From: Armillaria gallica
Lineage: Eukaryota > Basidiomycota > Agaricomycetes > Agaricales > Physalacriaceae
Length of the DNA: 64,000 nucleotides
Reading direction: 5' to 3'
Assembly (NCBI GenBank): GCA_037576215.1
Contig: JBANDB010000003.1
Coordinates: 1,488,001-1,552,000 of the forward strand
Shown: positions 6,168 to 42,524 of the stretch, in pieces
Layout of the letters: every line of letters starts with the position of its first letter
Position numbering within the stretch: the first letter of the stretch is position 1
Notes under the pieces: generated by a model
What the model was told of the DNA's origin: nothing
The model's database searches: none
Seen by the model: the letters and a program-made list of their open reading frames with translations, nothing else
Made by a program: the position numbers and the translations under genes

Positions 6168-7938
6168 TGACACGCTTGAAAAGTGTTCTGTAATTTCATG
6201 AAATGTATCAATAGATACATTTTATAAGACCTAGATACCAAAGCAATGAGATATACCTTAGAGCGCAATGTACTAAGTGCAGACAATGAAGTTCCTTGAG
6301 TGATGCTTGGTGGAGCACAAGGCTTAACTGCAGAGTGATACCATAAGGGTCACACTAAGTCTAAAGCCCCAGCACTTGACACTGAGTACACTGACAATGC
6401 ACGGAAGATGCGTGCTAAGAATGGAACCAGTGAAGCTCAGGAGATAATTGATACTTCATGCAACCTTGATCTATGACGCACGAGGCACTGCCATGCAGGA
6501 GACTAGCACTCTAGACCTCAGAATGTTTAGAATTGAAGTAAGACTGATGTCTCTGACTTTGGCCGATGTGCACAAGGCCTAGACTAGATGCTGGTGGTCC
6601 TAGAAGACCATGGAAATCACTAGAAGATATTATTACCATAAATAAGAGTTGCGGGGTAGGCTACAACTCCGAGGAAATACTAGGCGACGTCAGTATGCGC
6701 AGATAGCACAGTTAACCGATGTCGCGCAGCTGAGAGACAAGGATCTGGCCCCGAGCCAGAGCTCTGAGTAAGCGCCAAGCAATGGCGTGATTATGGCAAC
6801 ATGCCTGGGACTCAGGAAAGGAAGTTCCGCCAGCCAAGAGTTACTATTTAAGGTTGTATTAATATGTAGAGCGCATAGTATAAATACTGTAGTGTAGTAA
6901 TAGTGTACAAGTTTCGGACCCCCGTTGTAGTTGCGCGCAAGCCTCCAGCTTGACGCCCTAGCAGCAGGATTAGTTTGTAACTTCGAGCGAGAGAATAAAC
7001 CTAGAATTGATATCATACCGAGTGAATTGAGTTGCACGCGAGGCATAGAAAGCTTAGTGGGGGACTTGCCTAGCGGGGACTTGTGTATGGTTTGAGTGAT
7101 TGGTTGACTGCACTCTACCCTGAGAATAAGAGATATTGTGTCATTGCGGACGCGCTCTTGAGTTTTGAGGGTTTCTTGTAACGTGCGGTGCTACAGGCGG
7201 CACAGGTTCAAACCCTGTGGTCTGGTTAGCACGCGCTTAGTTGGGTATACCATTCCGCAAGTGGCAGAGGTTCAAACCCTTTGGCTTGTTGGACAGCGTT
7301 TCTTGGGTGCGAGATACTACAGGCAGCAGAGGTTCAAACCCTGTGGTCTAATTAGTACATGCTTGAGGGTTCTCATTTCTGCAAGCGGCAGAGGTTCAAA
7401 CCCTTTGGCTTGTCAGACAGGGTTTAGTTGGTTATTGTGTCTCTGGATTGGCATAGGTTCAAACCCTGTGGGTCTACAATCAGTTTTGGAAGCTTGAGCA
7501 CATAGGTTCAAATCCTGTGGCTTGAGTGGACATTTTGTGAAGGGTTTCTGCTTAGAGCGCAAGCTTTGAGTCATGTTTAGAGTGTGTTTAGGTTGTTGTG
7601 GTTACCTGTGTGTGATGCGCATGACTTATTGAGGGTTTTGTGGGTGTGTGGCAATGTATCGTGTATTGTAGTACACCTTGCCTTGAGGCCCGGTGACATT
7701 GGTCGCCCCTCTTGTTATAAAAGCCTTTGGACTTAGAGAGATCTAGATACATAATGTGCGCTATTGTTATACATGTGTATCATATATTCTGAGAGTTTAG
7801 TTGTCTTGCTTCAATCTGCTTCTATCACATAATATCCCCCCAAGAACTTGAGGGTTTGTGTGTATAGTGTTGGGTGTGAGTGTGATCAGTGTCTTTGACA
7901 CTGCTGCATTTCTAGCCTGCATGCACAGAGTCTCTTCA
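6168..7938 (-). mobile_element. Nested 1.77-kb repeat with TG...CA ends (long solo LTR or non-autonomous LTR element)
   Basis: It interrupts the integrase exactly at a Cys-Lys-Asn-Gly stretch: both flanks carry ATGG (AATGG if the last base is excluded), and removing the repeat plus one target copy restores the frame. The ends are TGACAC and CTTCA on plus. A second copy ends at 40761. Inside are TATA-like and AATAAA-like signals (near 6993 and 7720), an array of T-arm-like hairpins (7205-7520) and no protease or reverse transcriptase. The long minus ORF at 6690-7046 looks like chance. Confidence 0.8.
7200..7525 (+). repeat. Tandem array of six T-arm/B-box-like hairpins, ~62-bp period
   Basis: The motif GGTTCAAACCC (last unit GGTTCAAATCC) starts at about 7205, 7269, 7331, 7393, 7456 and 7505. 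It fits the B-box/T-arm consensus GGTTCRANNCC. The first unit has a perfect six-pair stem around TTCAAAC; other units keep pairing through A-T and G-T pairs. The second copy of the host repeat has four units. No A-box or full tRNA fold was seen around the units. Confidence 0.7.
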
Positions 7939-15615: not shown

Positions 15616-15824
15616 TTGATGACTGTCCTTTAATGAATTATATCACAGTCAACTCGTGGGGATCATGCAATTCTTGCAGTAGACTGCTGAATCTTGCAGG
15701 ATGTGTTCTATAAGTTATTTGGTCCAGCAGAAAATGTCCTATGCATTCACAATTATCTTCATTTGTCCATAGCAGCTTTGTTTTCTCTTGGAGCTTAGGG
15801 AGCTCGCTAAACTCATATGTCTAA

Positions 15825-16545
15825 GTTGCTCTCTTTCAATGCTTTAAGGTTCTCCAGCTCGGAATAATCCTTCATAGAGTTGTCTGTGAACTTCTCTTCA
15901 AGTCCCGGCAACTCCATGTGCTTCTCAAGTTCCTTAAAAACAAAAAGGCTGCTCAGGTTCATCTACTAGTCAGGTTTCTTCTTCAGAGGGAAAAGGAGAA
16001 GGCAGAGCATCATGCCAAGGCTATTCAGGTGATTTTATATCACTAGTAGCCAACTTTGACTCATCTTTACACAATTACCAGGCCGCCGAAGCAATTATCA
16101 CCAAAGGGGAGGCCAACGAGGCTGCTATCCAAGCCAGGAAGCATCCTCGTGCCTCGGCTGACCATGCTTTCAAGGATTCCCCTTTCACTATTGCTGGTAT
16201 GTGCTTACTAGTGAGCTTTGCGATGCACTATTGACCTTCTTTCTTTTACTAGCAGCTGACTTAGCTATCAACAACGAGGCTAGTCAGAGCACTGTCGATG
16301 CTGCGGCCATGCTAGTCAGTGCTGGAGATCATGTCAATCCCTCCAAGAGCATTTTGCGCTCTAGAGAGGCTGATCTTCGCAATGACATGATTGCTACGAC
16401 CCACAAGATTGAGTACTTACTCAAGTACCGCGAGTTTGTGGTCGCTCATCATGGCCAAGTCGTCAAGCAGCTCAAAAGTCATCTTCCGGTACCTATGGAA
16501 GACGAATCTCCAGCTCCCATTGCTTCTAGTTCCAAGCTTGACTAG
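15825..16545 (+). CDS. Spliced hypothetical gene, 3' exons (5' end not found)
   Basis: Exon 15825-16028, intron 16029-16081 (GT...AG), exon 16082-16196, intron 16197-16255 (GTATGT...CAG), exon 16256-16545 ending TAG. The joined frame is open throughout with a helical, charged character: REKEKAEHHAKAIQ, AAEAIITKGEANEAA, then DLAINNEASQSTVDAAAMLV and KIEYLLKYREFVV, suggesting coiled-coil. No ATG precedes it before a TAA at 15822-15824, so an earlier exon is expected. Several ACTAGT hexamers lie in its introns. The family is unknown. It is convergent with the Ty3 pol remnant at 16691. Confidence 0.5.
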
Positions 16546-16690
16546 TACCAGTCATTCGGAACGGTCACTAGTCACCATATATAAAAGTTTTCAATCACTA
16601 GTCTGTCATTTCTCATAATTTCCAACTGCTTAGATACAGTATCTAGCATACACCGTTGTTACTTAGCAATATAAAGTGTGTTTGACCATT

Positions 16691-18042
16691 CTAGCCTGCA
16701 GTTTTCGAGCTTCTAAGTCGACTAGTGATGGGGACTTTGTTGTCTTCATCACTATTGCTATCATCTTCGTCTGGCTGAAGGTATCCTTCAGCCTCTGAAC
16801 CTGAATCTTCGCTGTCAGACTCACTAGTGTCGCTCTGTTGCAGCCTAACTCGGTCTATACCATATAGTTTCTTGCCTAAGGGCCGATAGTGATATTCTGT
16901 TGGGACAGACTCGTCACTAGTCACCAACTCCTTAAGAGTTTGGGGACTTACATCAATCAAATCATGAATTTTCTTGGGTAACTCGATACTATGCCTCGCA
17001 TGGTATGGAATTACTCTAAACTGAGCGACTGTGCCACTCACTAGGGCTCCATCCAACTCTGCTAAGACATAAGAACCACCCCTAGTCCTTCTGATAACGA
17101 CTAGTGGTCCCAAGTACCTCGCCTCCATCTTGCTATTGAGACTTTCCTCGACTCATGTGTTCCGCATAAGCACTAGTCGACCTGGTTTGAAGTCGTAATC
17201 GATCATAGTGGCCTTGTGCTCGCGTTGGTAGCGTAGTACAGTATCGAGCTTATTCTTATTAATTTTCTGTTGCATGGCCATTACATGTTTAGCGTGCTTG
17301 GCTAGTGCTGTCACCCTCATACCAATAAGGTCTTCGGTGCTCAAGATCCCACTTGGGGGCTTGACTAGCCAAGTAGCTTCAACTACATCAAGGGGTACTA
17401 TTGGATGTGCGCCTAGTGCCATGAAATATGGTGAGCAACCAGTACCGCGTTTGATAGTGATACAGTCCGCCCACAACACATGCGGTAGGAAGTAAAACCA
17501 CTTCTTTGGGTTGCCACTAGTCGCCTTAAATAGCGATTGATGAATGTCCCAATGGCCTCTTTCAATTTTTCCATTCGCTTGCGAGTTGTAAGGAGTGATC
17601 TTTATGCCAGTGATGCCATACTTGTCACTTAGCCACTGTATAACTGCAACCCAAGGTCCGCCGTTATCAGTTACTATTTTGTTGGGACAGCCCCACCTGC
17701 ATATCACATCCTCAAAGAACCAAACCGCAATTGCTTTAGCATTTTCTTGCTGTAAGGCCCTTGCTTCTGGCCAAGACGATAACGAATCGCGTGCGTGAAC
17801 TATATACCTGCACTTATTAGAAACCGGGGTCATAACCATAGTATCACAGTGTACTTTCTGGAATAGCGAAGGCGTTTCGGTGACAGAGGGTGGAATACAG
17901 ACCATAGTCTTCTGTCTGACTTGACATACCAACTGATGTCTCATTCCAACTCTGGCCACCAAAACCGTTGCTCCAACAGTGACTTAGTCGCGTAAAAGCC
18001 TCTATGTCCTAACGAGTCGTGTGCTGATCTCATCATATACAT
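16691..18042 (-). pseudogene. Ty3-type integrase remnant (element 3)
   Basis: Minus-strand frame 17962-17153 carries the integrase core: HCDTMVM (first Asp), KIVTDNGGPW (second Asp) and NGKIERGHW (Glu), so the DDE triad is present. After a TGA at Arg position 17150-17152 the frame continues to 16691 with the C-terminal domain YLGPLVVIRRTRGGSY and a long acidic tail. Upstream, HDSLGHRGFYATKSLLEQRF is the zinc-domain end, with further TGA at Arg positions and a small deletion. No LTRs were located. Confidence 0.85.
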
Positions 18043-18858
18043 TCAATGCTCTTTATCCACTACTAGCCGGTGGTCTCCTTCAGTACTGCGTCTATATAGT
18101 CTGCCTTCTTTGTCCAAGAAGAAGTTACGACAGTACTGCTTGTCGTTAAGTCCTTCTGGGTGGTGTCTAGGGTTCCTCAACCAAGTCCTGATATGTGGCA
18201 GCTGTCCGTCTTGCGCTAGTCCACTACTAGTCCGTTGTTTCTCTGAGTAGTCCTCTCTTTTGTTAGGATCGAACTTATACTCGAGATCAGGAATGAGCGG
18301 TGTCGCTTTCAAGAACTGGCATATGGTTTCATTGGTTTTCTCCTGTGCTAAGTAAAGATTTCTTAGTTCTAGTTCATGAAAGCGTGCTTCGTCCAATTCT
18401 ACAGAAAAGTCGTCGATACTAGTGGCTAGTGTGTGCATGTAGCCACCTCGACTATCAATTTCATTCTTAAATTCCTCTAGTTCCTTCGGCAGCTCACTAG
18501 TCCCTTCCGCTACTTCAAACTGCAAAGGGCCATGGTCCTCTAGCTCATAATCCTCCAAGTCAGGATGGATCTCGTCGCCAGGTTGCGCATCTCGCCTCGA
18601 TAGTCTGTCAGCAGGGAAAGTACTACCTTTCACATGTCGAAGGGTGAAATGAAACATCAAGATATCCTCTATCCAACAGTTGATAGTGGCATTTGGTCCC
18701 ATTCCTGGGTTGCTTAGCATACCCTTGATGTACTGCACGTCGGTTTCAACCACCAAGTTGCGAATTCCAATAAGCCAATACTGACAAGCCTTTAAAGCTT
18801 GCAATAGTCCATATAACTCGTGTTTGGGCTGTGAAAACCATGCTTCTCTTTCGTTCAT
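18043..18858 (-). pseudogene. Ty3-type RNase H and linker remnant (element 3)
   Basis: A frame of 271 residues includes WFSQPKHELYGLLQALKAC, LVVETDVQYIKGML and FTLRHVKGSTFPADRLSRR, the C-terminal half of a Ty3 RNase H with its connection region, then a charged linker toward integrase. The reverse transcriptase that should precede it is absent: the upstream frame (18944-19483) is unrelated Ser/Thr-rich sequence. A TGA at Arg position lies at the junction with integrase (18040-18042). An internal deletion or recombination seems likely. Confidence 0.8.
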
Positions 18859-18943
18859 AGTTTACAAGCAAAAGATTAAGCTTGAAGGCTTGCACTAGTC
18901 ACCATGTTTCTCTCGTACTTCAAGGTTACAATTGAGCCGAAGC

Positions 18944-19483
18944 TCAAGATAATGATACAGTACTTGTACCCAGTGGATACTTTATAATATCGTCATCTTT
19001 AACGCTATAGCCAAAGAACAGACACCTGTTTCGCACTGTAGCATCCTCTGTGGTGACAGAATCATCACTAGTGTACTTCACAAAGTTTCTTGCTCTTTGA
19101 CTAGCCGTTTTTTGGGTGCTAGCAGAGACTAAAGTCCTACTAGCAGTTTGATAGGACTGCAAGTTCGGTAGTCCAGGGTATACTATTGGAACATCACTTC
19201 CAACAGCAGAAGAAGATGTGGATGTTTCAGCAGAAGGACTCTTCTGAATATCTGGCATGTCTACAGTATCTGGCACTGTTGCCTGCTCTGCTCTATCAGA
19301 AAGACTAGCAGAAGGTACAGTCATGCATTGCCTTGGTAGAATTATACCAGTACTAGACAAAAGAGCTGTATCCATTGAAGGAAACACCACAATCATTCTT
19401 TGAGGGGACTTCGGAAACAAACCACCAAGTAGCCGTTCCGAAGCCCAAGTGCGCATAAAGTCTGAAAATCCTCCCCTGCTCAT
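18944..19483 (-). CDS. Ser/Thr-rich ORF of unknown nature upstream of the element 3 remnant
   Basis: 179 residues starting MSRGGFSDFMRTWASERLL, then a low-complexity segment with SAETSTSSSAVGSDV and VSASTQKTASQRARNFV. No domain recognised. It could be a gag fragment joined to pol by deletion or the remains of a host exon. It contains ACTAGT sites like its surroundings. Confidence 0.3.
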   Translation of the reverse strand: MSRGGFSDFMRTWASERLLGGLFPKSPQRMIVVFPSMDTALLSSTGIILPRQCMTVPSASLSDRAEQATVPDTVDMPDIQKSPSAETSTSSSAVGSDVPIVYPGLPNLQSYQTASRTLVSASTQKTASQRARNFVKYTSDDSVTTEDATVRNRCLFFGYSVKDDDIIKYPLGTSTVSLS

Positions 19484-19783
19484 AGTTATACTATGGCAAG
19501 GGTCAGAAAGACGATAGTATGCAGGCTAGGTCGAATAGTATGCGTATTTAACAAGACTAGTGTCAAATAAAAGTCTTAATTCAACGAGATTATCAAGTCT
19601 GAAACTCCCTCGCGGTGGGCTCCAGATGATGTGCTCGGTAACAGCGAGTGGCAAATGGACTAGAGGCTGGCAATGAACACCAACAACACTAAACCAATCA
19701 CTAACTCTACACTTATCACCAATGTATTGAATTCGGGCGTTTCGAGTACGATAGAAGCACTCTGCAGACTTCAATAATCAAGG

Positions 19784-20940
19784 AAAGTTGTTTAAAGACG
19801 TTTTATTTCGTTACTAGTGAGCTATACAAGCGTACTACTCGCACTAGTGGGGTTTGTAAGACACAATTGGATGAATAGTGACTTGACTTGAGCTACTGCG
19901 CTCGCTCTGACTGGGACTGCTTCGAACTAGTGGCTCTCTTGGCCCTGTAATGTCTTACAAGTGAATAAACACTTGACTAGTCGCTTTCTAGGCAGACTAG
20001 TGGCGCTCTTGGCCTAAGAATAATACTTTAAACTTCAAGAACTTGCTTGAACTAACTTCGAAACACTCTTGGCCTTTGCAGGACACAAAAGATTACTCTA
20101 AGACACTTCTATTCACTCAATGCTATGGGTAACTTAGCGACTAGTAGCCGCTTCGTCGAGGTTAAGCACAAAAGCCTTTAATTGGGGCACTAGATACTGA
20201 CTAGTAGGTCACAATTGCGGGGATGGCTTGCCTGAGCCGCGTGTGTGCCTATTCTACTACTTATATACTGACAAACAAGGTACGATCGAGATATAAATAA
20301 CTGACTAGAGGGGTATTATTGATAAGGATTTCTTGGCTAGTCACGAATAATGGTGAATAATCACGCAATAGTCGGTCTAGAAACGATCGCTTGCTGACTA
20401 GTGAGCCTAGGAGCTCCGCTAGCGGTTGTATTCCGTGTCCTGGGCCCAGCGACGCTCCACTAGTGCCAAGGATAAATGACTAGCCAGGCGAGCGTGCCTG
20501 TAACAGCTGTCGATCGTGATCGAAGGCGCAGCCCGGCTATACTAGCACCGATCGCAATGGATCTGTATCGCACTCGTCAGATCTGCCGCAAGGTTAACCC
20601 ATTGCTAATTCATTTCTAAGTTCTGTTTCGAGATTGCCGCGTGACTAGTTAACCTGACTTAAGCGTTTATGCCCAGAGCGGCTCGCTAGTGACCGAACTT
20701 CATGAGATTTGTGTCCTCTGCTTCTTGTTTGGTGCACTAGTCGCGTTACTTGTCCACTAGTGGCCGTATTCACTTAGCCCTGTTAGCATTCAAGTCACTA
20801 GTATGACCGGCTGGTAGATTTAACCCACTAGTGGTATCGCATCTAAGTCCTGGCTCTACTAGTCGCATACTAGTCTAACTATCAGCTCGAAGCCTCAGCT
20901 ATAGTCCTCTAAGTATCACTAATGTAAGATAGATATGCAA
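19784..20940. other. Non-coding part of the ACTAGT-rich domain
   Basis: No gene recognised. ACTAGT occurs every 40-80 bp on average, and the phrase 'ctcttggcc' recurs at about 19938, 20005 and 20072. It may be an LTR or leader of element 3, but no second copy is present in the window to test that. Confidence 0.35.
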
Positions 20941-21756
20941 TAGTATTATTATAAAATCGCAAAATCTAGGTGTGAACGTGTAGACGGCGTATCATCGTCA
21001 CCCACTTAGGTAGTCTCTGAGTAGACTTAGGATCAGTATCAATCAGTTTTCATATCACATCAGTATAGGACAGTCCCTCAAGCGGACTTGAAGGTTAGTT
21101 TTGACATAGGATAGGATTGTTTCAGTATGAGACCAGTTTTGACATCGACTCAGCACCATTGCACCATATAGGACCAGTATCATCACCAGTTTTTGTAGTT
21201 TAACATTTTCTCTTGACATTCCACCCTCAGTACCTCTTTCTATGATATTGCTCACCTCACTCAGTCCTACAACACATTTTCTCATTGACTCTCTCACTTC
21301 TAGACCGATTGCCATCGGTTTAGTCTATCTCCCATTGTTCACCCCACATAGATTACCATCTAGCATCATTTTCTAGTTCCACAGCACATTTTCTCATATG
21401 GATTCATGGTATTAATGTCATACCTGCTTTCATTCCCTCTCACTTTGAGAGATCCCTACCGGCTTATAGCCAAAGCATCTAGTACTCAACTACCAAGCAG
21501 TACTACTTCGCAGACTTAAAGTCACAGTGTATACTTGCATATAGAGGAATTGATTTACTGCATGGAGGTGCCTCGAACCACTCACACACATGATCGCCTT
21601 GATTGCCATGCTACTACATTAACTTGCCCAATCTCATTTTGAGTTGGTGTTGCCATTGCCATGGAAGTCTAGGCTCATCACCATTGACATACTCTTTGCA
21701 GTAGCCACCTGCATGGATGCGTCAGAAGATAGATATGAATCCATGAGCATTGCTTA
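20941..21756. other. Non-coding stretch, nothing recognised
   Basis: Short frames only. Phrases related to 'agtatcatcac' and 'caccattg' recur at 20990-21190, like a decayed tandem repeat. Confidence 0.3.
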
Positions 21757-22021
21757 CACTGCATGATAGCTTCAATAATTGAGGCTTAAATATTAAATTT
21801 AAAAGATATATATTTTCATCAATTTGTTGCCTAAAATATGCAGAAGAATTTGCTGATATCTCTTTTATATTTGTGAAAATCACCTCAAAACTTGATAAAA
21901 TCACAAATATAGAAAAGATATTTTGCTTATTTCTTTGATATTTTAGGCTGAAAACTGACTAAAAATAAATATCTTTTGGTTTCAATATTTTGGCCTCACA
22001 TATTGATGCCATCATGCAGTG
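21757..22021. mobile_element. CACTG-type MITE, 265 bp (copy 2)
   Basis: The left end CACTGCATGATAGCTTCAAT is the inverted match of the right end (complement CACTGCATGATGGCATCAAT). The target duplication is TTA (21754-21756 and 22022-22024). The interior is AT-rich with no ORF. Termini and length match copy 1 at 9990, so one transposase family probably moved both. Confidence 0.9.
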
Positions 22022-23824
22022 TTACCATGTAGAACAATTCCATTGGGTGTCGAGAGAAAAGAAAAGCCACTTCTTGCTCTGCATAATAGGTCAACATGAA
22101 GACAAAGACCAGAAGACACCGATCACATACTACAACAGAAGTGTCCAACCGCAGCATTAGACCTGGATGAAACTTGGGTCAAGTAGCCAGCAACCAAACT
22201 TGAGTTGGCTCACCATTGTTTTCTTCAAAATAAAATGTTGAACTTCATGTGCGACAATTGATGTTGGCTATCCCACATGACCTAGAGTCTAAAACATCAG
22301 GAACACAAGTTACAGATGAGAAAAAGTACAGGCGCCCTGTATCTCGTGGTCTGCAGATATTCTCATAGCCCCACTCAGCCTATCAACATCGTGCACCAAG
22401 TAGCAATGCACATTGCAATACTAGAACAACATGTCAAGTTGTCCCAGTTGTGGCTATGTACTTTTGCATAAGCAAGTTCTAGCTTAAAGAATAGTTTATC
22501 AGCAAATATGGAAGCGAGGACATTGGGCTATACACCTGGGACCAGAAACCTAACTATGCAAGTCCCCTTATGATTCTTTTACTGCATGAAAAAACATCAA
22601 AAAAGAGGAAGATTATAACTAACAAGCTGGATGTAATCACCTTTAGAGGTTGGAGATCCAATACCCACTGAAAGTAGGCAATCCGAAACAGTTGTGACAG
22701 ATGCTGTTACGGGTGCATGAAAATGCATGTGGTTGCATGTAGTTCATCGGGGGTGGTGAGCATGTAGTTCAGTGTAGACACGTGTAGAACTGACAGGTTT
22801 GTCATGGTGTTGACACAGCTCTACACGATTGTGCAATCACTAGGGCAGGATGTTTCCATGTGGTGCACCCAGGTTTGCATGGGATTTCATCAGTGTACAT
22901 GGCTGTACATGGCTCCACACGGATGTACATCCATTTAAACTGGTTTACATCAGTGTACACTGGAGTCCAGTAAATCCACTTGTAAGCAACAGCAGGAAAT
23001 GTCATGGCAGATAATCCAGTAGTGGTGGAAGCCGAGTCCCCAATTCTTTCCTTTTTTAAATATCAACAATTTTTGACTTTCTTGCGCCTTTTTCTTCCTG
23101 CTGCAGTATGTAGTTACTACACGGGCCATTACTAGACAGCTATGTCATTGAAGCTTGAAGGGTAAATTCATATCTCATTCGAAAAAGCTCGCTCAGTGGC
23201 GGCCTTTGGCTGCCACCAGCTTGCATTTTCTCACTTGGTTTTTTAGTTATTCAAGTAAAGAATACCTTGGGAATACTATGTACATAACCCTAGGCTAACA
23301 GCTAACATAAGATATAGGATGAAAAAAAGATGGGAAAGTGGGCAAGGCAGGAGCCTCAAAAGGCAGTGCACAATTAAGATGAAAAATGGTGAAGAAAGAT
23401 GGAGGATGTGGGATTCCATAACTTGAACAATGGCCAGCAACTTAGAAAGACACAAGCCAGGAGTATCAGCCCAACAAGGAGAAGGAAGTGCTATAAAAAG
23501 GTGGTAAAAGCAAGGGGGTGCCAGAATGTCGGCCTGGCACACCAGGTAGGTAGGTAGGTTGGGCCATCAGGCCCAAAAAAAAAAAGTTGACCACCTTTTT
23601 AGGGGCCTGAGAATGGACTTTGAGCACAATGTATTAATCATTTATGATACAAAATATACTTATCAGTATAGAACTTACCTTGGGACATCACATCTAGCCA
23701 TGTAGATGGACAATCAATGAAGTTGGCAAGCATTGCCAAAATGACCCTGCTTGCTGACATGATGACATCAGACCTCCCATTGAGGCAATTTTGAGATCTA
23801 GACATAATAGCATACAAATTGTAC
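22022..23824. other. Decayed, CpG-poor intergenic DNA
   Basis: No gene recognised. A TGTACA/CATGTAG-rich cluster at 22720-22980 recalls a decayed minisatellite. A GGTAGGTAGGTAGG tract lies at 23546. Short frames are not conserved elsewhere. Confidence 0.35.
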
Positions 23825-24340
23825 TCAAAATACTTTATAGCATACATAATACACCCATTTCTGGTGAGGTATATGGAATATTGTGTCAGAAGATGCCTGA
23901 AATAGGTGAGATGATGTCATATTGGTCATATGGAGGTAGGTCTGGTACTGGTGCACAAAATTTTTAATCAACCCCATGTCTTTTTTTTTCATATTGGTAC
24001 CCCCTTGGGTAAAAGTAGACAGAGGGAATGAAAATTGAGTGAAGAGGTCTATGCTAGCCTGAGCAATACTTATTATAAGCAAACCAATCTCCCCAACCAA
24101 TAGGGAAAAATCAGAAAGAGAGGTTTTTTCAGCCACAGTGGCAATCAGCTTCAGCCACTCAGCATGACAGCTGAAGCATGCCGGATGCTTGTCAATCACT
24201 ACAAATTTGTAAGCCAACCCAGAGTATAGCCCCTGTCCAGACTGTTTGGTGCTACTCACCAAGGGGGTGGTGGAAATAAAATCCCGGACAGGGGAGGGGG
24301 GGGAGGGGGAGAGGGGTCCTGACCTTAAACACGATACCAA
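23825..24340 (-). CDS. Hypothetical ORF, 171 residues, doubtful
   Basis: A single open frame with a hydrophobic central part (LLVGEIGLLIISIAQASIDL) but no recognised domain and a Cys pair in CFSCHAEWLKL. It lies in CpG-poor repeat-like DNA and its start overlaps a G-rich tract. It could be a chance ORF. Confidence 0.25.
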   Translation of the reverse strand: MVSCLRSGPLSPSPPSPVRDFISTTPLVSSTKQSGQGLYSGLAYKFVVIDKHPACFSCHAEWLKLIATVAEKTSLSDFSLLVGEIGLLIISIAQASIDLFTQFSFPLSTFTQGGTNMKKKDMGLIKNFVHQYQTYLHMTNMTSSHLFQASSDTIFHIPHQKWVYYVCYKVF

Positions 24341-24655
24341 ATTACCTTATATAGGACTGTGAGAGGGCCTAATGAGGTATAAAATGATGCTTCCATCTCA
24401 ATAGGATCACTTGTGAGTTTGTTAAAGCATCCAACATGCTTTATATACCTTTTGTGAGTCACGGCAACACAGCTGGCAACCTCAGGCCATCATATTGTGC
24501 TGATATAGCATTACTAAGCTACCCACATATGGTCATATTACTACTGTATATGGAAAGAGGGGGGGGAGGGGGGGGTCTACCTGACCTTAAATGTGAAAAT
24601 GTATGTCATGTGCACAATTTTATTTCCGCCACCCCCTTGCTACTCACAACCAGTT
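24254..24655. repeat. Imperfect inverted repeat with two long G tracts
   Basis: About 35 bp around CAAGGGGGTGGTGGAAATAA (24258) recur inverted near 24618. G-rich runs lie at 24286-24320 and 24557-24580 on plus, and each could form G-quadruplex-type structures. It may be a foldback element. Confidence 0.4.
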
Positions 24656-24779
24656 ACATTTTCTACAACCCTCTGTCATTTCCTCATCCTTCAGAAAGAA
24701 TCAGGGATATCACAAAAATGATGGACAATGGAAAATATTCCCACAGTCAGTCCAATTCATAGGACTTGGAATTAGGCAT

Positions 24780-25540
24780 GTCTCATGAGTTATTCTTCCG
24801 TTGTTGGTCAAACACCTGTTGAAATTTTCCTGGTCCCTTCTGGCCACAGTACACGCCAGAGAATGAGGTAAGGCATGCAAAACAAGGACTTTTTATAAGT
24901 AAACACACCAACGTTGCTCACGAGTCACGATTCAATTAGGCTTCTTCCTGGAGTCAAAGTATCCAACACTACACCATTGCAAGGAATGCGATATTCTGGA
25001 GGCTGTCCTCGGTCATCATAGGATTCTTCTGTGCTTCTTATCAGGTGTCTAGGATCACCCGCTCACGCCTTGCCAAGTCAGGACATTTGCAATGACACGA
25101 ATCACATTGGATAGATTTGTATGCAGAGCACAAACCACTTGAGTCTTCAAGCTTCAAGCTTCAGGCCCAGGCCAAAGATAGGCGACTATCTACTTCGCAT
25201 CTTCGACGTGCTTCGCTTTGGATATCTCCACGAAGAACTGAGATATACCCTCAATTCGCAGCACGAAGTAATGCTGACGCCAAACATCAGTAGACTTGGA
25301 CGAAGAGGTGATTATTTTGTTTCTTTCTGATGAGAAAGACATCTGTAGCGTATGTACGGTCCCAGCTACCTTGGCGTATCCTTCGGACGGCTGTAATTTA
25401 TATTCAAGTGGCAAGGGTAATAGGTTGATGCTGCCTCACAAACGTTACAGCAACCGGTATGTTGTATCATCACCAGCTCTTTTATCTTTCCTAAATTCGT
25501 TCAGCGACAGAACAGATCTACACAGACCCTAATCCCATAA
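24780..25540. repeat. Three-copy block D, copy 1 (also 29536-30545, 62625-63555)
   Basis: The same order of phrases occurs in all three copies, for example the stretch around 25180-25330 against 30140-30290 and 63160-63310. A minus-strand peptide (SQF-EISKAKH-ED-K in all three) is fairly conserved and could be an exon; no family recognised. This copy lies just upstream of P450 copy A, copy 2 upstream of P450 copy B. Confidence 0.7.
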
Positions 25541-25672
25541 ATGACAGGGAAGCGAATGAGTCTACTGCCACATTGTGTTCTCTTCAAAACGGATTGCGGC
25601 AACTACTACAAATCAAAATGACTAAGCCCGGAGGAGGAGCTCGGTACTTTTTAACTGAATTCTCATGGTGCG

Positions 25673-25680
25673 TATATAAA
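25673..25680 (+). promoter_or_regulatory. TATA box of P450 copy A
   Basis: TATATAAA lies 39 bp upstream of the ATG at 25719, in a segment conserved with copy B where the spacing is 26 bp to the first ATG and 62 bp to the second. Confidence 0.55.
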
Positions 25681-25718
25681 CGCCAACTTTCCTGTTTTAT
25701 GTTTCCAGTATTCATAAA

Positions 25719-27801
25719 ATGCCCCTCGAAGAATACATCGATCTCGCACGACAAGTCGACAAAACCTTAGTGTTACGCAATCTTGGTTTAGCCACCGTGT
25801 TTCGGCTGGCGCTCCAACTTCAAAAGACCTTAATCACTAGACAAAAGGTAATTGTTATACCAACTTCGGTCCCGGTCAATGCTGACATCGTCTCAGCTGA
25901 AATCGATTCCTACGGCTGGGTCGTCTGGTATCGTCGGGTCATGGATAGACGCTTTCAAATTCATCTTTCACGCCAGGGAAATCGTCGAAGAAGGTCAGAG
26001 AATGGTGTGTATCGCTCTGTCTCACGATCTATGATCTGACCTGTTATGAATAGTATGGATCGATATTCAAAGTTCCCTTGCTCGACAAACGGACTGTTGT
26101 GGTCAACGGAGCAGAGAGAATCAATGACATCCGAAAGTCTTCAGTAGAAGAACTGTCTTCCATTGTCATGAATGAAGACGTGAGTGCTGTGTGTCGTGCA
26201 CGAATCATTGGGCTTCCGACAACTAGATGGACTATACTTTTGGTCGCTCCAACAGGCTGGACCCTTACCATTTAGACGTGGTACGAGGCGCCTTGACCCG
26301 CAATATCTCCTCTTGCTTTGCGGAGGTTCAGGATGAGATCAAACCGGCTTTCAAGGACAATGTACCGATGACTGAAGGTACTAAGACTAACAATGTTTTT
26401 GAGTAACCCAGGCTGACGTTACTGCAGATTGGGTTCAGATGCCTGCATACGAAACTATTTTGCAAATTGTGTGCAGAGCGAGCAATCGGATGTTTGTCGG
26501 GCTTCCTCTTTGTGAGTAACCTCTCCCTCTCGAGTCTCGACACCGTATTGATATAAACTCTTCCTTGAGGCCGCAACCGCGAATATATCAAACTCAATAT
26601 CAACTACACCATCGAAATTTTAAGTTTTGCTCGTATTATCAACGTTCTCCCTACGGTCCTGAAAATGCAAGTCATTCTCACTCAATACTATTCATACTGG
26701 CACCATAACTTCATACGATTAGGATTCTGAGTCCTACCTTCACGCCCCGCAGGCGAGCTATAGCCAAGGCAGAGAAATTCCTTGGCGAAACCATTCAGGA
26801 ACGAATGAACCAGCAGGATGTCTATGGGAAAGATTGGCCGGGAAAACCAGTAAGGAAGTTTTGATTTCATTCACTTTTTGTCTGACACGACGGTAGAATG
26901 ACCTCGTCTCGTGGCTGCTTGACATAACTTATGGTGATGGCAAGAGGCGCTCAGTAAAGGATCATTGTGATCGGGTGCTCATGTTGAATACGACAGCTAT
27001 GGTATGTCGGATTACGCATCACAGAGCTACAGCTGATTGCGTCCCTACAGACTCTCACTACTGCCCTCTACGCCTTGGCTACACACCCTGAGTATGCTGA
27101 AATTCTTCGCGATGAAGCGGAAGCTATCATCAACGAAGAAGGTTATACGAAATCTGCAATGGGAAAGATGAACAAGCTCGACAGCTTTATGAAGGAAGCG
27201 CAGAGATTGTATGGTAACATTAGTGTCTGTGAGTTGTCAATCTGTTCATTACATCAATCCCTTCTGACGATTGGGTACAGTCGGAATGATGCGTGAGACC
27301 CGTAAGAACTTCGTATTTTCAGACGGGACGGTGGTTCCCGTTGGAGTTCCAATGGTTGTGGCCTCTCTGTCCACGCATACAGACGAAGTACATATGAGCT
27401 TTTTTTACCCTGACAGTCCCTCTCATCATGTCTATAGAAGAAATACGAAGGCCCTTTAGTACTCAAACCGTGGAGGTTCTCTGAAAAGATGAAACAAGAA
27501 GGCGAAGGCACTCGCCACTGCATGGCCACAACGAGTCTGGATTTCGTCTTTGGCAACGGGCGGTCAGCATGGTGCGTATATGTCGAGCTCTCTGAAAACT
27601 CCTCAGGTTGACATATTTGTGTGCAGTCCGGGCAGATTCTTCGTTGTCAACAAGTTGAAAACTATCATGTCCTACGTTCTCCTGAACTTTGACGTGAAGC
27701 TTGACAAGTTCTCCACGCCAGTGTGGATTGCTGGAACTCAGCTGCCAAATCAGAGCAGCAAGGTGTTGTTCAGGAAGCGCGTATGTACCCCGCGAAAGTG
27801 A
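25719..27801 (+). CDS. Cytochrome P450 monooxygenase, copy A (12 exons, 496 aa), I-helix motif deleted
   Basis: Exons: 25719-25847, 25897-26004, 26054-26179, 26227-26377, 26428-26511, 26570-26666, 26753-26849, 26897-27001, 27051-27228, 27281-27387, 27438-27571, 27627-27801. All introns are GT-AG except intron 6, which is GC-AG. The joined frame is open to TGA. Seen: an N-terminal hydrophobic anchor (LVLRNLGLATVFRLALQL), ExxR as KEAQRL, KPWRF, and the heme loop FGNGRSACPGRFF with its Cys codon split by the last intron. Compared with copy B it lacks five residues of the I-helix (LNTTAM against LNMSSIHSTSM) and one Phe before the heme loop. P450s of this kind are ER-anchored haem oxygenases; the substrate is unknown. 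Activity is doubtful. Confidence 0.9.
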
Positions 27802-28276
27802 CGATCAGAAGGAGTTGAGCATTGAAGAGTCAAGCAACAGTGCCTACTATGTCGTTCCAGTACCAGTATGAATCTTTGATGAAGTGGTGAGCCATCGCGG
27901 GGCGTGGCACGTCCGAGTCCTGTGTGAGATCCAGCATTAATGCTCACGACAATTTCGTGCCAGATTTTCCGACGAACAATGCAATTGATTAGGAAACGAA
28001 AATTGTGCCTTCGAACGTCGTCAACGTATGCAATGATATATAGATTAGCTCTGGCTGGACGCGGGGAAAGGTTTGCTCGGCGGCAGCTATGAACCAGACG
28101 TTCTATCAGACTGCGCTCACACCCTCGTCCTGTTCGTTGATGTATTCCTCCCTGAGATTAGTATTGAGGATTGAGGAGATTGATGAAGTCGAACAAAGAA
28201 TAACCAACGCCGAATGATTTGAGACCTGCAAGGGCCTCTCAATCTCTCTGCGACGAAAGCTTCGTCGACCCATACC

Positions 28277-28620
28277 ATGTGGTAAAGCGCTGAAATTATC
28301 ATCAGGGTCCTTTTCGAGCAGGAATTATGCACCGCGGAACTAAAATCTTACTCTGAAATCCTGTAAAGACGGGTGACCATTCCTAGTTCTTGAAGTGGGT
28401 ATTACCTCTTTCACAGCGAACGGCTGCAACGTTGCTGTCGTGTTGCCAAACCTAGATGCATATAACTTGAGCTTTCCTGTTTGGGGTAAAGCATGAAGCA
28501 AACACGATGGGGATGGATTGAATACTTTTCACGCAACTAAAGGATTTGTTCAGCGTGACCGTTTAGGTTTAAAACGTGGCCATCGTGGGAATTAACCCAA
28601 ACGCCAATGTCGATCATGAC
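28277..28620 (+). repeat. Three-copy block, copy 2 (CpG-rich version)
   Basis: Same block as 3146-3440 and 61350-61660. It keeps CpG where the other two have TG or CA, for instance CACCGCGGAAC against CACTGCAGAAC, so it is the best view of the ancestral sequence. Confidence 0.75.
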
Positions 28621-28799
28621 CGCGTACCTCTGCCTTTCCCTTAAAGACGATGATTCCCTTCCACTGGCTCACCCACCCATTCTCTTCCTTTTACTACTTC
28701 ATCATGCTGCCCCCACCTGGCAACGACCACATGTGCATCTTCACCCATGAGCCTCGGCGCAATGCTCCTTCTCAATGTCCTCAAGATTCGTAACGACGC

Positions 28800-29480
28800 C
28801 TATCTATGCCGAACGGGTCGAGTACCGTAAATTTCTTCCACCCGGTAGTCCAGTGGAGCATGAGTGCCTCGTCGTGACCGTGAAGGAATCCTCGAGAGCT
28901 GAGCGGAGAGGTACCTATTGGTAGGCAGGCTGAATGACGACCCATCAGCGGATGTCGCTCTAGTCAGGATGCAGCCGGCACACAGGACACCGACTCGCAA
29001 TCACCTCCAGCCTCATCCCCACCCGACGATCACTGGGAAACGAACAATCGTCTTCATCGCGCCGGTGTCAAACTCAAGAGATTCTGCAAATGGGATCCCC
29101 CCGACGCTCTCGACAGAGTCGTCATCCTGCGCAGCACAGTCGACGCTGACAGTGTGCAGGCTCGCTGCCCTTATCACATTCTTATGACCATGGACTTTCG
29201 CCAGGTCCAACGGTGCGTCGCTCTCGAGGACTTCCTTCTCCTCGTCCAGAATACCTCCAGGAATACCGCGCGGTACCATGTCATATTTTCCCTGTGCTAT
29301 TGGTTCGCCTACACCATTTGGATCGTTCACGGGAGCCCATGTGGTGAAGGTCATATATGTTGTACTCGATTGGGATTTTCTATTTCTAAATCCATCCGAC
29401 TTGTACTAAAGTTATTGCTAGTTCCACATGGATCAGAAATACCCTTCATCTACGGAACACTGAATTCCTCCGCTGAGCCT
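28800..29480 (+). pseudogene. Repeated agaricomycete hypothetical family member (copy c)
   Basis: Plus-strand pieces in order: FLPPGSPVEHECLVVTVKES, LVGRLNDDPSADVALVR, and from about 29205 ALEDFLLLVQNTSRN with SLCYWFAYTIW. The same order and the W-FA-T-W motif are seen in copy d at 61.9-62.45 kb and, inverted, in copies a and b. Frame changes between the pieces could be introns or lesions; the stop after RGTYW at 28918-28920 is a lesion relative to copies a and b. Function unknown. The antisense ORF at 29013-29354 is taken as a shadow. Confidence 0.5.
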
Positions 29481-29535
29481 GAGTCTTAGAATGTTGGTGG
29501 ACTATTGGGTTTCATTTGCTACGAGCTTGGATCCC

Positions 29536-30545
29536 GTGAATTATTCCTCTGTTGTTGGTCGACCACTTGTTAAAAGTTGCCAGGTCCTTCTGGCCATAGT
29601 ACACATCTGAGAATGAGGTATGTTAACGCATTTATCAAAGCGGGGAGTGATTATGACCCCAGATATTCCTGCAATAACATGGCGACAGCACGACCGTCAT
29701 CCCGGATGACTATTGGAAGGAAAAGATTGACTTCATCAGAGATAAAGCTGAAATTTTTAGCCGGTGATGCGTACGACCTATGTCTTCGTTCAGTTCTAAT
29801 ATATATGGCTTCTCATCTTGATGTTGACTGAGAAACGGGATTGTCGGACGACATGGCATGAACGCCCTATCGAGTGTCTCCTGAAGACACGCAGAACGAG
29901 TACTTTTTATAAGTAAACACATCAGCGTTGCTCACGATTCAAATAGGCTTCTTCCTGGAGTCAAAGTATCCGACACCATACCATCGCACTGAAAGCAGGG
30001 AGCGCGTTACTCCGGAGCTGTCCTCAGTCAACATATGGGATCACCCGCTCATACGTCACCAAGTGAGCACATTTGCAATGACACGAGCCGTATTGGGTAG
30101 AATCATATGCGGACTAAATACAATTTGGGTCTCCAGGCCAAAGATAGGCGGCTACTTAGTATCTTCGACGTGCTTCGCTTTGGATATCTCCGCCAAGAAC
30201 GGGGATACACCCTGAAATTCGCGGCATAGAGTGATGCTGACGCCAAGCATCAGTAGACCTGGATGAAGAAGGGATCATAGTGTCCCATTTCGATAAGGAA
30301 GATGTCTGTAGCGTACATACCGTCCCGGCAACCTTGGCATATCCTTCGGATGGCTAGAAACAGCAAGCGATAAGTTGATGCCGCCGACACACGGACACAA
30401 GGGTCGTCGCAAACCTATACCGGCACCACCACCAACACACCAACACCAAACGCGTCAAGCTTTTCACAGATATTACGCCATCCGGTATGTTGTGTCATTA
30501 TTGGATCTTTTATCTTTCCTAAATTGTTCAGCAACAGAACGAACC
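29536..30545. repeat. Three-copy block D, copy 2
   Basis: Matches 24780-25540 and 62625-63555. Copies 2 and 3 share an internal part (29640-29900 against 62710-62900) absent from copy 1. It holds short broken frames, including a conserved minus peptide with RPTIPFLSQHQDEK. Confidence 0.7.
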
Positions 30546-30556
30546 TTTCAAGTAGC

Positions 30557-30990
30557 ATGAGTGATCAGTTATCTACTATTCCCGATCCCAGATCTCACGG
30601 TGCCGAGCTCCGAAGTCGAAGATTCCGGGAAGGTGGCCATGTTAGGGCGAGTAAGGTAAAGGACGGTAGCAGCCTCCAGCGGAACTCAGAAGAGTGGGAG
30701 TCGGCAGCATGTTGGACAACCGTCGCAGGACAAGAAGATAAAGTAAGTAAGATTGTACAATGGTGAGGACTGATAGTGCTGAATCTCTGCATGATGCTGA
30801 TGGAGGCCTCCGAGACGACGCGAGCGGTAACATGACATTGGCGTCGACCATCTTCGGAGTAGACTATGAGTTAGCTGTGAAACGAAGATGAAAATATCGA
30901 GACACGCCCATTAACTCCCACAACCAACAGCATCTTTCAACGAAATACAAAATTTCTATTACTTCTGGCACCATGCACACAAGGAGCAAG
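30557..30990 (+). repeat. Two-copy block E, with a conserved short ORF (also 63568-64000)
   Basis: An ATG at 30557 opens MSDQLSTIPDPRSHGAELRS and runs to EEWESAACWTTVAGQEDK followed by a GTAAGT-like donor. The copy at 63570 keeps the frame with few replacements. It may be the first exon of a gene or a conserved upstream region. No family recognised. The rest of the stretch to 31610 shows no gene. Confidence 0.45.
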
Positions 30991-31734
30991 ATTCTATTAC
31001 CTTTAATCAGATGATACATTGGATATCTTGGCATCCAGAATTAATAGCATTGTCAGATTAAAAGTCACTGTTTGGGGGTAGGCAGTTCCGCATTCGGAAC
31101 CGTGCTGCTTAGTCGGCGATTTGATTGATAAGAGTGACCTATTCACTCGTCTACCTTTCCTCCTTCCCTCGACGTCCCTGTGACTGTTGCTTATCGACAG
31201 ACAAAGGACTGCGAGGTTGTTTGGCGTTTGAGCCCACATTGTCACCAAGCGAAGGTGCTGATCATTAAATGTCGTGGTGCTTGTCTTTCCAGTCGCCGCT
31301 TGTTAACGTCTTGTTATTGTTCTCTTATTAATGGTACGTATTCGTTGTTTATACCCGCGGCTTTTAGTTAGAATCATCATATAAAAGGACTGTCTTGTGT
31401 AGGATACCCCATCTCGTTTGCAACGGATATACAATACCTTTTCCTCTCGCTCATTTCGTGGTCCCGAGCCTCGCGATTCCAATAGAGGTATGTCACAGGA
31501 TAACCAGCCTGTCACTTGGCGCCAGTCCCGATTTGGGAATGTGAAGATCAGAGATCGGATTCGGGAACATCCGAACAGTGAAAGATCACCTAAGACTCAA
31601 GTAGCATAGAGGAAGCGAATCAGTCTACTGCCACACTATGTTCTCTTCCGAACGGATCGCGGGAACTGCTACAAATGAAAATGACGAACCCCGGACGGAG
31701 GAGCTCGCTGCTTTATCTCCATTCTCATGGTGCG

Positions 31735-31742
31735 TATATAAA
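31735..31742 (+). promoter_or_regulatory. TATA box of P450 copy B
   Basis: TATATAAA in a segment conserved with copy A. A partial duplication of about 36 bp follows, so that ATGCCCCTCGAAGAATA occurs twice, at 31768 and 31804; either ATG is in frame. Confidence 0.55.
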
Positions 31743-31767
31743 TCCCAACTTTCCTGTTTTATATAAA

Positions 31768-33911: not shown

Positions 33912-34255
33912 CGATCAGAAGGAGTTGAGCGTCGAAGAGTTAAGAAATAGTGCCTACTATGTCGTTCCAGTACCAGTATGAATCTTTAATGAAGTGGTGA
34001 GCCATCGCGGGGCGTGGCACGTCTGAGTCCTGTGTGAGATCCAGCAACAATGCTGACGACAATTTCGTGCCAGATTTTGCGACGAACAATGCAATTGATT
34101 AGGAAACGAAAATTGTGCCTTCGAACGTCGTCAACGTATGCAATGATATATAGATCGGCTCTGCTGGACGCGGGGAAAATGTTTGCTTGGCGGCAGCTAT
34201 GAACCCGACGATCTACCCGAATATGCGCCTACACTCTCATCCTGTTCGTTGATGT

Positions 34256-41769: not shown

Positions 41770-41981
41770 CCCCGGACCTGAACCCAACGCAAACCGTCGC
41801 TCTTAGTGCCGCCATCGTAACCACCACCTTTTTGTGCCTCCTCACTGTGGCACTAGTCCTTGTATATCAGGAACAGATTCGGGGATTCCTCCACCGACGA
41901 GGGGTCCTCATTGTACCACCACCACCACCAATTCCTCGACACTATGTCGAACTACCCAGACTCGATCCCGCCCACATCTGA
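41766..41981 (+). CDS. Small ORF with one membrane segment in the element 2 leader (second)
   Basis: 71 residues starting at an ATGA overlap with the preceding stop. AAIVTTTFLCLLTVALVLVY is a clear membrane segment, followed by a basic stretch FLHRRG and a proline run. It may be a real accessory protein or a chance pair; the hydrophobic design repeated in two adjacent ORFs argues against chance. Confidence 0.4.
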   Translation: MTPDLNPTQTVALSAAIVTTTFLCLLTVALVLVYQEQIRGFLHRRGVLIVPPPPPIPRHYVELPRLDPAHI

Positions 41982-42524
41982 CCAGGCATGGGGACGGAGC
42001 GCTCAATCCTACGGAACCGACGACAGGGGGAGTCAGTCGTCTTCTTCGAATCCTGTCAGGGGTTCGTTGAGGATCGAGAGCCTACTCAACCCGCTTCCAG
42101 AGCCGGATCCTTCACACAAGCAAGAACGCAGGACGTACGGCGTGAGGAGCCCGACCCCCAGAATACACCCCCAGACAACATCTCCCCGCAAGGGGACCCC
42201 AACTCGAGGCCTTTCTACGATGCCCCCCGACGTGACCCGCTCAGTGGCCGCTTGGGACGGCTCGAAGACCCATTGAGGTCGACAGTGACTTGGACGATAG
42301 TATCCCCCTCATCATCCTGGATGAGCGAGGAGTTCCATACGCCCCTGGGATCTCCGGAGCCTCCACCCCTGAATCTGTCCCCGCCGTTCTGAGAACCATT
42401 ACTCCTGACCCAGAGCCCATGGGAGCCGCAGCAACCCCTGCAGACCCGGAACCCCTTCCGAACCCAGAACCTGTCGTGGCTGGACCGCTGCGACCACAAG
42501 ACGACGACGACCCGCTCAACCCCT

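Follow-up and report, generated by a model that had tools for sequence, protein, structure and literature searches.

A helically phased array of ACTAGT sequences in a Ty3-type retrotransposon of Armillaria gallica as a candidate set of protein-binding sites

We have analyzed a 64-kb stretch of the Armillaria gallica genome (G000:C3:1488001-1552000, termed the window below; the genome comprises 86 Mb in 28 contigs), in which the hexamer ACTAGT is concentrated in one truncated copy of a Ty3-type long terminal repeat (LTR) retrotransposon. All four full-length copies of this element that we found carry 84-88 ACTAGT sequences each, spaced with a period of 10.23 bp and extending into the codons of the element. 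On balance, we think that these sequences form a selected, helix-phased array, likely to be binding sites for one sequence-specific DNA-binding protein.

The window contains 41 copies of ACTAGT, compared with 13.1 +/- 3.6 expected from dinucleotide shuffles, none of 100 of which reached 41. Thirty-four lie at positions 15,965-20,874, and no other 6-mer is as strongly enriched there; frequencies in the remainder of the window would predict 0.67. The other seven are spread over the remaining ~59 kb, a number not above the shuffle prediction. An earlier sequence-only reading had reported more than thirty ACTAGT packed into 4.9 kb and argued that base composition was insufficient to explain them. 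Both statements hold, and the shuffles and enrichment counts rule out chance or base composition as the source of the density. The same reading described exons, introns, Ty3 remnants and non-coding DNA within borders at which ACTAGT almost stops. The hexamer does span all of these and is nearly absent outside, but they are parts of one LTR retrotransposon, and the borders are corrected to those of the element homology, starting at ~15,953-15,964 and ending with the LTR at 20,996. No similar density is found elsewhere in the window; beyond the window the comparison is one of ACTAGT pair counts. The cluster is therefore real, and larger than first noted.

The genome was searched with both ends of the ACTAGT-rich stretch, and ten loci were fetched. 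Four of these hold full-length copies (C5, C6, C9 and C4) of 15,052-15,069 bp; the remaining six (C3, C15, C1a, C12, C1b and C2) are incomplete or rearranged, or run past the end of the fetched stretch. The LTRs are ~1,369 bp long with TGAT..ATCA ends, and are 99.3-100% identical within each of the four copies, so that the family has probably been active recently. The 4-bp target duplications are perfect in three of the four (CCGG, CCGC and ACGC), with one mismatch in C5. The order in C6 is LTR, gag (637 aa), protease (446 aa), pol (1,362 aa), 4.9 kb containing two antisense genes (A and B), and 3' LTR. The pol open reading frame (ORF) matches the Pfam families RT_RNaseH_2 (2.5e-11) and then Integrase_H2C2 (2.3e-18), with the gag and protease frames upstream (protease match 5.6e-4, under the cut-off). 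No Pfam reverse transcriptase (RT) domain was reported in this ORF; a genome search with the segment preceding RNase H scored 105 matches, and homologs of this segment are annotated PF00078. On the basis of paired LTRs with TG..CA ends, the target duplication and RNase H before integrase, the element is classified as a Ty3-type LTR retrotransposon. ACTAGT is by far its top hexamer, occurring 72 times in the last 13.7 kb compared with 11 for the next palindrome.

The sites are unevenly distributed along C6. There are 16 in the 1,369 bp of the LTR (11.7/kb), 10 in the 675 bp between genes A and B (14.8/kb), and 7 in the 272 nt of the gene B introns (25.7/kb), with at least one in each of the five. 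The exons of gene B have a single site in 1,230 nt, the span of gene A has three in 2,161 nt and the stretch upstream of gene A three in 456 bp. The gag-pro-pol region contains 30 sites in 7,282 bp.

The spacing of the sites follows the DNA helix. Gaps of up to 63 bp between adjacent ACTAGT sequences in C6 are 11, 19, 20 (three times), 21 (three times), 30 (six times), 31, 41 (twice), 42, 50 (twice), 53, 60 (three times), 62 and 63 bp. Including two variants gives 124 sites, for which the 76 adjacent gaps of 8-105 bp have a mean cosine of 0.78 at 10.2 bp; none of 4,000 jittered controls reached this value. Phasing is found in non-coding gaps alone (16 gaps of up to 60 bp, R 0.94) and in coding gaps alone (14 gaps of up to 130 bp, P 0.011), and also in the L001 LTR, the C1a LTR and the window copy. 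The spacing is best fitted by a period of 10.23 bp, with a bootstrap interval of 10.20-10.26 bp (244 pairs of 15-200 bp) that is approximate because pairs share sites. Free DNA has a helical repeat of 10.5 bp, and phasing at that value is rejected, as it falls outside the interval. The mean cosine is 0.84 for distances of 15-60 bp and then falls through 0.62, 0.48, 0.31, 0.41 and 0.29 (300-400 bp) to 0.16 at 400-600 bp and 0.05 at 600-1,000 bp. Among the 18 5-mers with at least 20 pairs, ACTAG has a phasing score of 15.0, and the next is the overlapping CTAGC at 3.1. Across the genome, 553 pairs of ACTAGT are 29-31 bp apart (62 in the reversed control) and 10 are 24-26 bp apart (35 in the control); these pairs are presumably mostly in copies of one family, and thus measure the spread of the pattern rather than independent events. 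In a host control stretch of the window (22000-34000), GTACA is strongly spaced at ~10 bp (28 copies, 21 pairs), with a score of 5.8. Single phasing scores of 3-6 are therefore not taken as evidence.

The base composition around the sites has the same periodicity. With the sites masked, the dinucleotides AA/TT/TA/AT (WW) follow the phase of the ACTAGT centre (z 6.6) and GG/CC/GC/CG (SS) run out of phase with it (z -5.3). AA/TT alone are weakly in phase (amplitude 0.03 on 0.155, z 4.5). The autocorrelations of WW and SS in the masked element peak at 10.2 bp, most strongly in the LTR and weakly in the post-pol part. No peak near 10.2 bp is present in the C8 sister family (described below) or in three of four window stretches; weak peaks occur at 9.9 bp in the C3 sister family and at 10.0 bp in one window stretch. 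Other positioning words are not clearly enriched in the element (TTTAAA 5 compared with 4.1 expected, TCTAGA 2 with 5.5, CCTAGG 2 with 3.0 and CTTAAG 2 with 4.6), and GCTAGC (9 with 4.1) and GGTACC (5 with 1.8) are mildly so. Generic TA or AT-rich positioning words were therefore rejected as an explanation.

The array extends into the protein-coding sequence. The coding sites of C6 are read as Thr-Ser in 22 cases and as Leu-Val in eight; the third frame, which would generate a stop, is unused. ACTAGT spells 22 of the 31 Thr-Ser pairs in the C6 ORFs, and a further three are ACTAGC. Thr-Ser is itself over-represented, with 31 pairs where 10.4 are expected, compared with 12 Ser-Thr pairs for the same expectation. 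Synonymous codon shuffles, which retain protein sequence and codon usage, gave a mean of 6.9 sites and a maximum of 16 in 2,000 trials, as against the 30 observed. The pol protein of C6 has 15 Thr-Ser pairs, where its homologs have a mean of 2.9 and at most 8 (best 120 of 1,569). At the 12 Thr-Ser sites of pol, Thr-Ser is everywhere outside the five commonest pairs of the first 60 homologs, several of these columns being mostly gaps. At three of the six Leu-Val sites of pol, Leu-Val is also found in 44, 59 and 57 of the 60 homologs, so that ACTAGT is synonymous there. Judged from these codon and homolog comparisons, ACTAGT has arisen in two ways: through synonymous substitutions where the residue is conserved, and through amino-acid replacements where it is variable.

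Three other explanations of the sites were considered and rejected. Apart from one array in gag, there are no tandem repeats in C6 or the window stretch, so an origin from tandem arrays like those of the VANDAL transposons does not apply. A preference for insertion at ACTAGT does not agree with the CG-rich duplications at the four insertions. Intron branch points have the consensus CTRAY, which ACTAGT does not fit, and the hexamer is also present in the LTR, intergenic DNA and codons.

We compared the nine one-letter variants of ACTAGT, with both strands folded together. GCTAGT/ACTAGC (28 compared with 7.9 expected) and AATAGT/ACTATT (24 with 6.7) are enriched, ATTAGT (2 with 6.7) and CCTAGT (2 with 6.8) are avoided, and the remaining five occur about as often as expected. 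Placements near ACTAGT are in phase for 15 of 17 GCTAGT/ACTAGC and 14 of 15 AATAGT/ACTATT, neighbors of several sites being counted repeatedly. Independently of the enrichment among variants, ACTAGC and AATAGT are thus the hexamers most enriched at in-phase distances from ACTAGT. Decay by C-to-T change would yield ATTAGT, yet that variant is avoided, and the spectrum thus looks like one of recognition rather than decay. A separate word, CTAAGTC/GACTTAG, is present in 13 copies in C6, counted over one LTR and the internal region (L027:968 to L028:4659), and may be related to the site but longer by one base.

Most sites are common to the copies of the family. The L001 LTR (83.4% identity) retains 14 of the 16 ACTAGT, compared with 467 of 1,318 other hexamers. 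The corresponding values are 13 of 16 for L004 (762 of 1,318 hexamers), C2 (771) and the C3 copy (979), and 10 of 16 for C1a (562) and C15 (818). Over the whole element, retention relative to all hexamers has p = 3.6e-6 for C1a, 1.4e-6 for C12, 6.6e-4 for C2, 0.007 for C1b, 0.01-0.02 for C5, C9 and the C3 copy, 0.13 for C4 and 0.57 for C15. Much of the baseline loss of hexamers is CpG decay, and conservation therefore gives only moderate support. Relative to CpG-free hexamers that contain no site, ACTAGT is better kept in L001 (14/16 compared with 377/814, p 9e-4), C1a (44/56 with 3,365/5,507, p 0.004) and C12 (42/48 with 2,844/4,276, p 9e-4). When the CpG-free hexamers have the same base composition, p is 0.015, 0.0025 and 0.009 respectively. 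The divergence of the near-identical copies C5, C9 and C4 is too small for the CpG-corrected comparison. Strong conservation was consequently set aside as a main pillar of the argument, and sequence comparison supports conservation beyond CpG decay to a moderate degree. Some ACTAGT present in L001 or L004 yet absent from C6 stand, by eye, at phased places, for example 21 columns past a neighbor.

The two genes on the strand opposite to pol in C6 were predicted from open frames bounded by GT-AG splice sites; for the latter half of gene A this was done by eye. Gene B has five introns of 52-58 nt and a predicted product of 409 aa. Gene A also contains introns, and its predicted product of 551 aa has a Cys-rich finger-like stretch, which in the predicted model of a relative is followed by a long helix. 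The proteins most similar to the two products come from Armillaria gallica, A. nabsnona and A. ostoyae, with a top value of 87% for the gene B product and 77% for that of gene A, and proteins related to gene B are found in Armillaria and Desarmillaria.

Two sister families were compared, represented by L045 (the C8 family) and L046 (the C3 family, G000:C3:2327401-2333400). L045 has 71% identity in RT and one ACTAGT in 7,000 bp; L046 has 66% and one in 6,000 bp. The expectation that homologous elements share the sites is thus borne out among the copies of the family and not in these two relatives. No convincing homolog of gene A or B was found in the L045 and L046 stretches (tblastn, best E 0.05), although an antisense frame of L045 includes a Cys-rich stretch. 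The C8-family LTR is rich in GCGC (19 compared with 3.5 expected, reached in none of 200 shuffles). The C3-family LTR has no clear word, its best palindrome being ACGCGT (6 of 200 shuffles). Phasing of GCGC is not significant in the C8-family LTR (p about 0.1). It has p = 0.001-0.003 at 10.0-10.2 bp in a 93.6% identical copy in the window (no more than six gaps). In post-pol DNA it is phased only when all pairs are taken, with p = 0.002-0.009 at 10.3-10.5 bp. In the C3 family the phasing of TCCA and ACGC exceeds that in each of 60 shuffles, and AAAA is phased as well, all more weakly than ACTAGT; this may be ordinary A/T periodicity or a nucleosome signal. A different phased word for each sister family is thus only partly seen. 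The window also holds a GCGC-rich, solo-LTR-like copy (~93% identical) of the C8 Ty3 family at 39125-40161 and a more distant relative (75%) at 6233-7213.

Recruitment in codons, the spectrum of variants and the helical phasing, and to a moderate extent conservation, support the earlier suggestion that ACTAGT marks a set of putative protein-binding sites. Undirected biased mutation, offered at the same time, does not fit the array; both the phasing and the avoided C-to-T variant contradict it. The reader protein would contact the element from one face of the helix, with a preference for ACTA half-sites. The period of 10.23 bp and the oscillation of WW and SS are those of nucleosome-wrapped DNA rather than free DNA at 10.5 bp, so that the reader would probably act on nucleosomal DNA with a set rotational orientation. 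We predict that it is encoded by the element itself, in antisense gene A, with its Cys-rich finger-like stretch and coiled coil, or in gene B. By analogy with VANC its task might be to mark the element's own copies and keep them open, i.e. self-recognition and anti-silencing. This suggestion of an antisense-encoded reader opposing silencing draws on those parts of the accounts of VANC (PMC5735166) and of the antisense genes of Retand (PMC11963269) that were available. The array would then help the element to control its own packaging or silencing, and a role in silencing or anti-silencing is plausible. The fullest form of the idea, in which the whole 15-kb element, genes included, has been overwritten with a phased self-identity code (one hexamer set on a single face of nucleosome-type DNA and acquired by synonymous and amino-acid changes alike) that its own antisense-encoded protein reads to mark and unlock the element's copies against host silencing, we offer tentatively, as something rather doubtful.

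Should a protein read the array, selection for DNA recognition would have rewritten codons and even amino acids of a mobile element, and the 10.23-bp spacing rule would point to wrapped, nucleosome-type DNA, not free DNA. It would provide a sequence-coded candidate for self-recognition or anti-silencing in a fungal transposon, and would carry the principle of VANC over from the DNA transposons of plants to a retrotransposon. The origin of such arrays without tandem repeats could then be tested by comparing Armillaria species.

Several observations weigh against a protein-read array. All the sites come from one family, so the copies are not independent. The excess of conservation over CpG-free hexamers is significant in only three of eight comparisons (p = 0.40 for L004, 0.12 for C1b, 0.06 for C2, 0.53 for the C3 copy and 0.91 for C15), and ACTAGT is not the best-kept frequent hexamer, ranking 15th of 76 in C1a and 11th of 30 in C12. 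Four of the five gene A introns examined contain no ACTAGT. Phase coherence to 400-600 bp exceeds one nucleosome, which is not what a simple nucleosome reading alone predicts. Neither antisense protein has a Pfam family above the cut-off, and the alignments of their relatives gave no significant PDB sequence match (one at E 0.55). AlphaFold2 models of one relative per gene are mostly of low confidence, and Foldseek on these two models found no PDB fold at E < 0.001.

The main rival is a code for histones only, in which the array positions nucleosomes and its fixed rotational setting has evolved without a dedicated reader. The period, the phases of WW and SS and the 10.2-bp autocorrelation of the masked element, strongest in the LTR, are all as it would have them. 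Moreover CTAG is a known strong inward-facing positioning core. CTAG and TTAA are described as the two major experimentally identified nucleosome-positioning cores (YTAR), with a period of 10.2 bp, in the portion of the source available (PMC2880596). Yet other positioning words, those with TTAA and other contexts of CTAG among them, are not clearly enriched beyond the mild excess of GCTAGC and GGTACC, AATAGT/ACTATT is enriched and in phase without having a YTAR core, and the phase is held to 400-600 bp. We consider this explanation fairly unlikely. If instead a host transcription or chromatin factor bound the sites and were exploited by the element, all the site evidence for a protein reader would apply equally, and the density of sites in the LTR and between the antisense genes falls where promoters are expected. 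Such a factor would leave unexplained why ACTAGT in the ~59 kb outside the element is no more frequent than in shuffles, and why the two sister families examined are nearly free of it. We know of no promoter array with 84-88 sites per element that includes codons, and we regard a host factor as unlikely.

A function in the replication cycle would have gag, integrase or another particle protein coat the double-stranded cDNA, with the phased sites guiding wrapping, protection or self-recognition. A continuous coat would need sites in every main part of the element including codons, and phase maintained over several hundred bp, and both are seen. The coat would nevertheless be patchy, given the sparse sites in the gene B exons and the gene A span, and the targets of the four insertions are CG-rich, not ACTAGT; we find this role improbable. 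Least probable by far is a mutation or conversion process directed at the hexamer that writes ACTAGT into the element. It could account for sites at both synonymous and amino-acid-altering positions, and for conservation that goes only moderately beyond CpG decay. It would have to produce 10.23-bp phasing across unrelated flanks, avoid the C-to-T variant and leave the gene B exons sparse relative to the introns, and the scanned stretches have no tandem repeats other than the one gag array.

The array can be compared with several known systems. The Periodic An/Tn Clusters (PATCs) of C. elegans have a helical period of ~10 bp and are located in introns. They are periodic non-coding DNA able to prevent silencing in repressive chromatin (PMC7725773). 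As far as the available part of that source goes, PATCs are runs of A or T in host DNA outside codons, unlike a palindromic ACTAGT within a mobile element. The YTAR positioning words share with the array a CTAG core, the 10.2-bp period, WW in phase and SS out of phase (PMC2880596, in part). The differences are that the flanking A and T are required here, TTAA is not enriched, and the phased variant AATAGT has no YTAR. YTAR words are not interchangeable in the element, for TTTAAA, CTTAAG, TCTAGA and CCTAGG are not enriched.

VANC proteins are the anti-silencing proteins of the Arabidopsis VANDAL DNA transposons, and the VANDAL motifs YAGTATTAY, AGTTGTCC and AGTTGTAC lie in tandem repeats and non-coding DNA (PMC5735166; PMC10398659, both available in part). 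Like the present element, VANDALs have a short family-specific word that is dense in terminal, intergenic and intron DNA, together with extra genes. They are Mutator-type (MULE) DNA transposons whose arrays are, in the same sources, tandem and non-coding, in contrast to a Ty3-type retrotransposon with genes A and B lacking a Pfam family above the cut-off, and with sites that are dispersed, helically phased and also present in codons. Sireviruses (plant Copia elements) also have element-specific palindromes, up to 32 per element and dense in the LTR (PMC2829016). These are longer, nearly all with a CGG-CCG core, and are located near ENV as well as in the LTR; neither recruitment into codons nor phasing to the helix is among the features described in the part of that source available. 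Here the domain order is that of Ty3 and ACTAGT has no CGG-CCG core. Retand (plant Gypsy) shares a long region from pol to the 3' LTR with antisense genes suggested to bind DNA (PMC11963269). It differs in its TRP28 domain and frequent tandem repeats, and no phased hexamer is described in the available part of the source; TRP28 (PF04195) has no Pfam match in the antisense proteins here.

In the sources as available, transposon motif arrays (VANDAL, Sirevirus) and periodic anti-silencing DNA (PATC) are already known, and neither codon invasion nor a helix lock is described for the motif arrays. A literature search that left most subscription journals outside found no publication on ACTAGT in fungal retrotransposons, and no comparable array appeared in titles and abstract openings on fungal transposon anti-silencing, Armillaria LTR elements, helical phasing or CTAG positioning. 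Within the literature searched, the new features are thus a dispersed array written into codons with recruitment of amino acids, and locked to the helix, in a retrotransposon.

The features of the copy in the window are collected in Table 1. By blastn, positions 15,964-18,861 match C5, C6, C9 and C4 at 94-95%, and positions 19,525-20,994 or beyond match them at 97-98%. The left end of homology is at 15,953 in C1b and C2. The intervening 18,862-19,524 has no blastn match to the fetched copies and contains a diverged gag-like remnant. Gene A and a second LTR are absent from the blastn-matched stretch. The border of the LTR was taken from 28 of 42 rows that begin exactly at query position 128, i.e. 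window position 19,627 (40 of 245 first-look candidates scored). The final 122 bp of this LTR have no ACTAGT. The exon borders of gene B in the window were judged by eye from the sequence, guided by gene B of C6.

Table 1. Features of the truncated element copy in the window
Feature	Position	Strand	Basis
ACTAGT-rich Ty3-type LTR retrotransposon copy, truncated and internally rearranged	15953..20996	-	blastn against fetched copies; 34 ACTAGT
LTR (5' relative to pol), 1,370 bp, 16 ACTAGT	19627..20996	-	98% identical to C6 LTRs
gag-like remnant	18944..19525	-	42% identity over 77 aa to C6 gag ORF
pol remnant, RNase H region	18043..18861	-	Pfam RT_RNaseH E=0.002, under curated cut-off; stretch 94-95% identical to intact copies
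pol remnant, integrase core	17153..17983	-	Pfam PF24764 E=0.0041, under curated cut-off; homologous to C6 pol ORF
pol C-terminal part	16691..17152	-	open frame homologous to end of C6 pol ORF; no Pfam match
Gene B (antisense), 3' part: exon 4 15,987-16,028, exon 5 16,082-16,196, exon 6 16,253-16,545	15987..16545	+	homology to C6 gene B
Gene B intron 4, one ACTAGT (16,042)	16029..16081	+	GT..AG borders; C6 counterpart also holds one
Gene B intron 5, one ACTAGT (16,207)	16197..16252	+	GT..AG borders; C6 counterpart also holds one
34 ACTAGT sites, helically phased	15965..20874	.	19 adjacent gaps of 8-105 bp, mean cosine 0.62 at 10.2 bp

Elsewhere in the window, positions 41857-48753 hold a Ty3-like element that is GC-rich (47-61% per kb) and mostly open, and that includes frames resembling gag, pol and integrase. 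Its composition is very unlike that of its surroundings, and it has no enrichment of ACTAGT. Among the LTRs of the ACTAGT family, one is nested in another at LTR position ~571-575 (L038:1477-4218) and that of L003 is also broken near position 555-574, so LTR position ~555-575 is a possible hot spot of insertion or recombination. Just to the left of the element copy, window positions 15820-15956 appear by eye to run in frame into gene B exon 3. The same stretch resembles, again by eye, the middle part of the Armillaria ostoyae proteins P0040 and P0043, and the chimeric junction may thus be present in other species.

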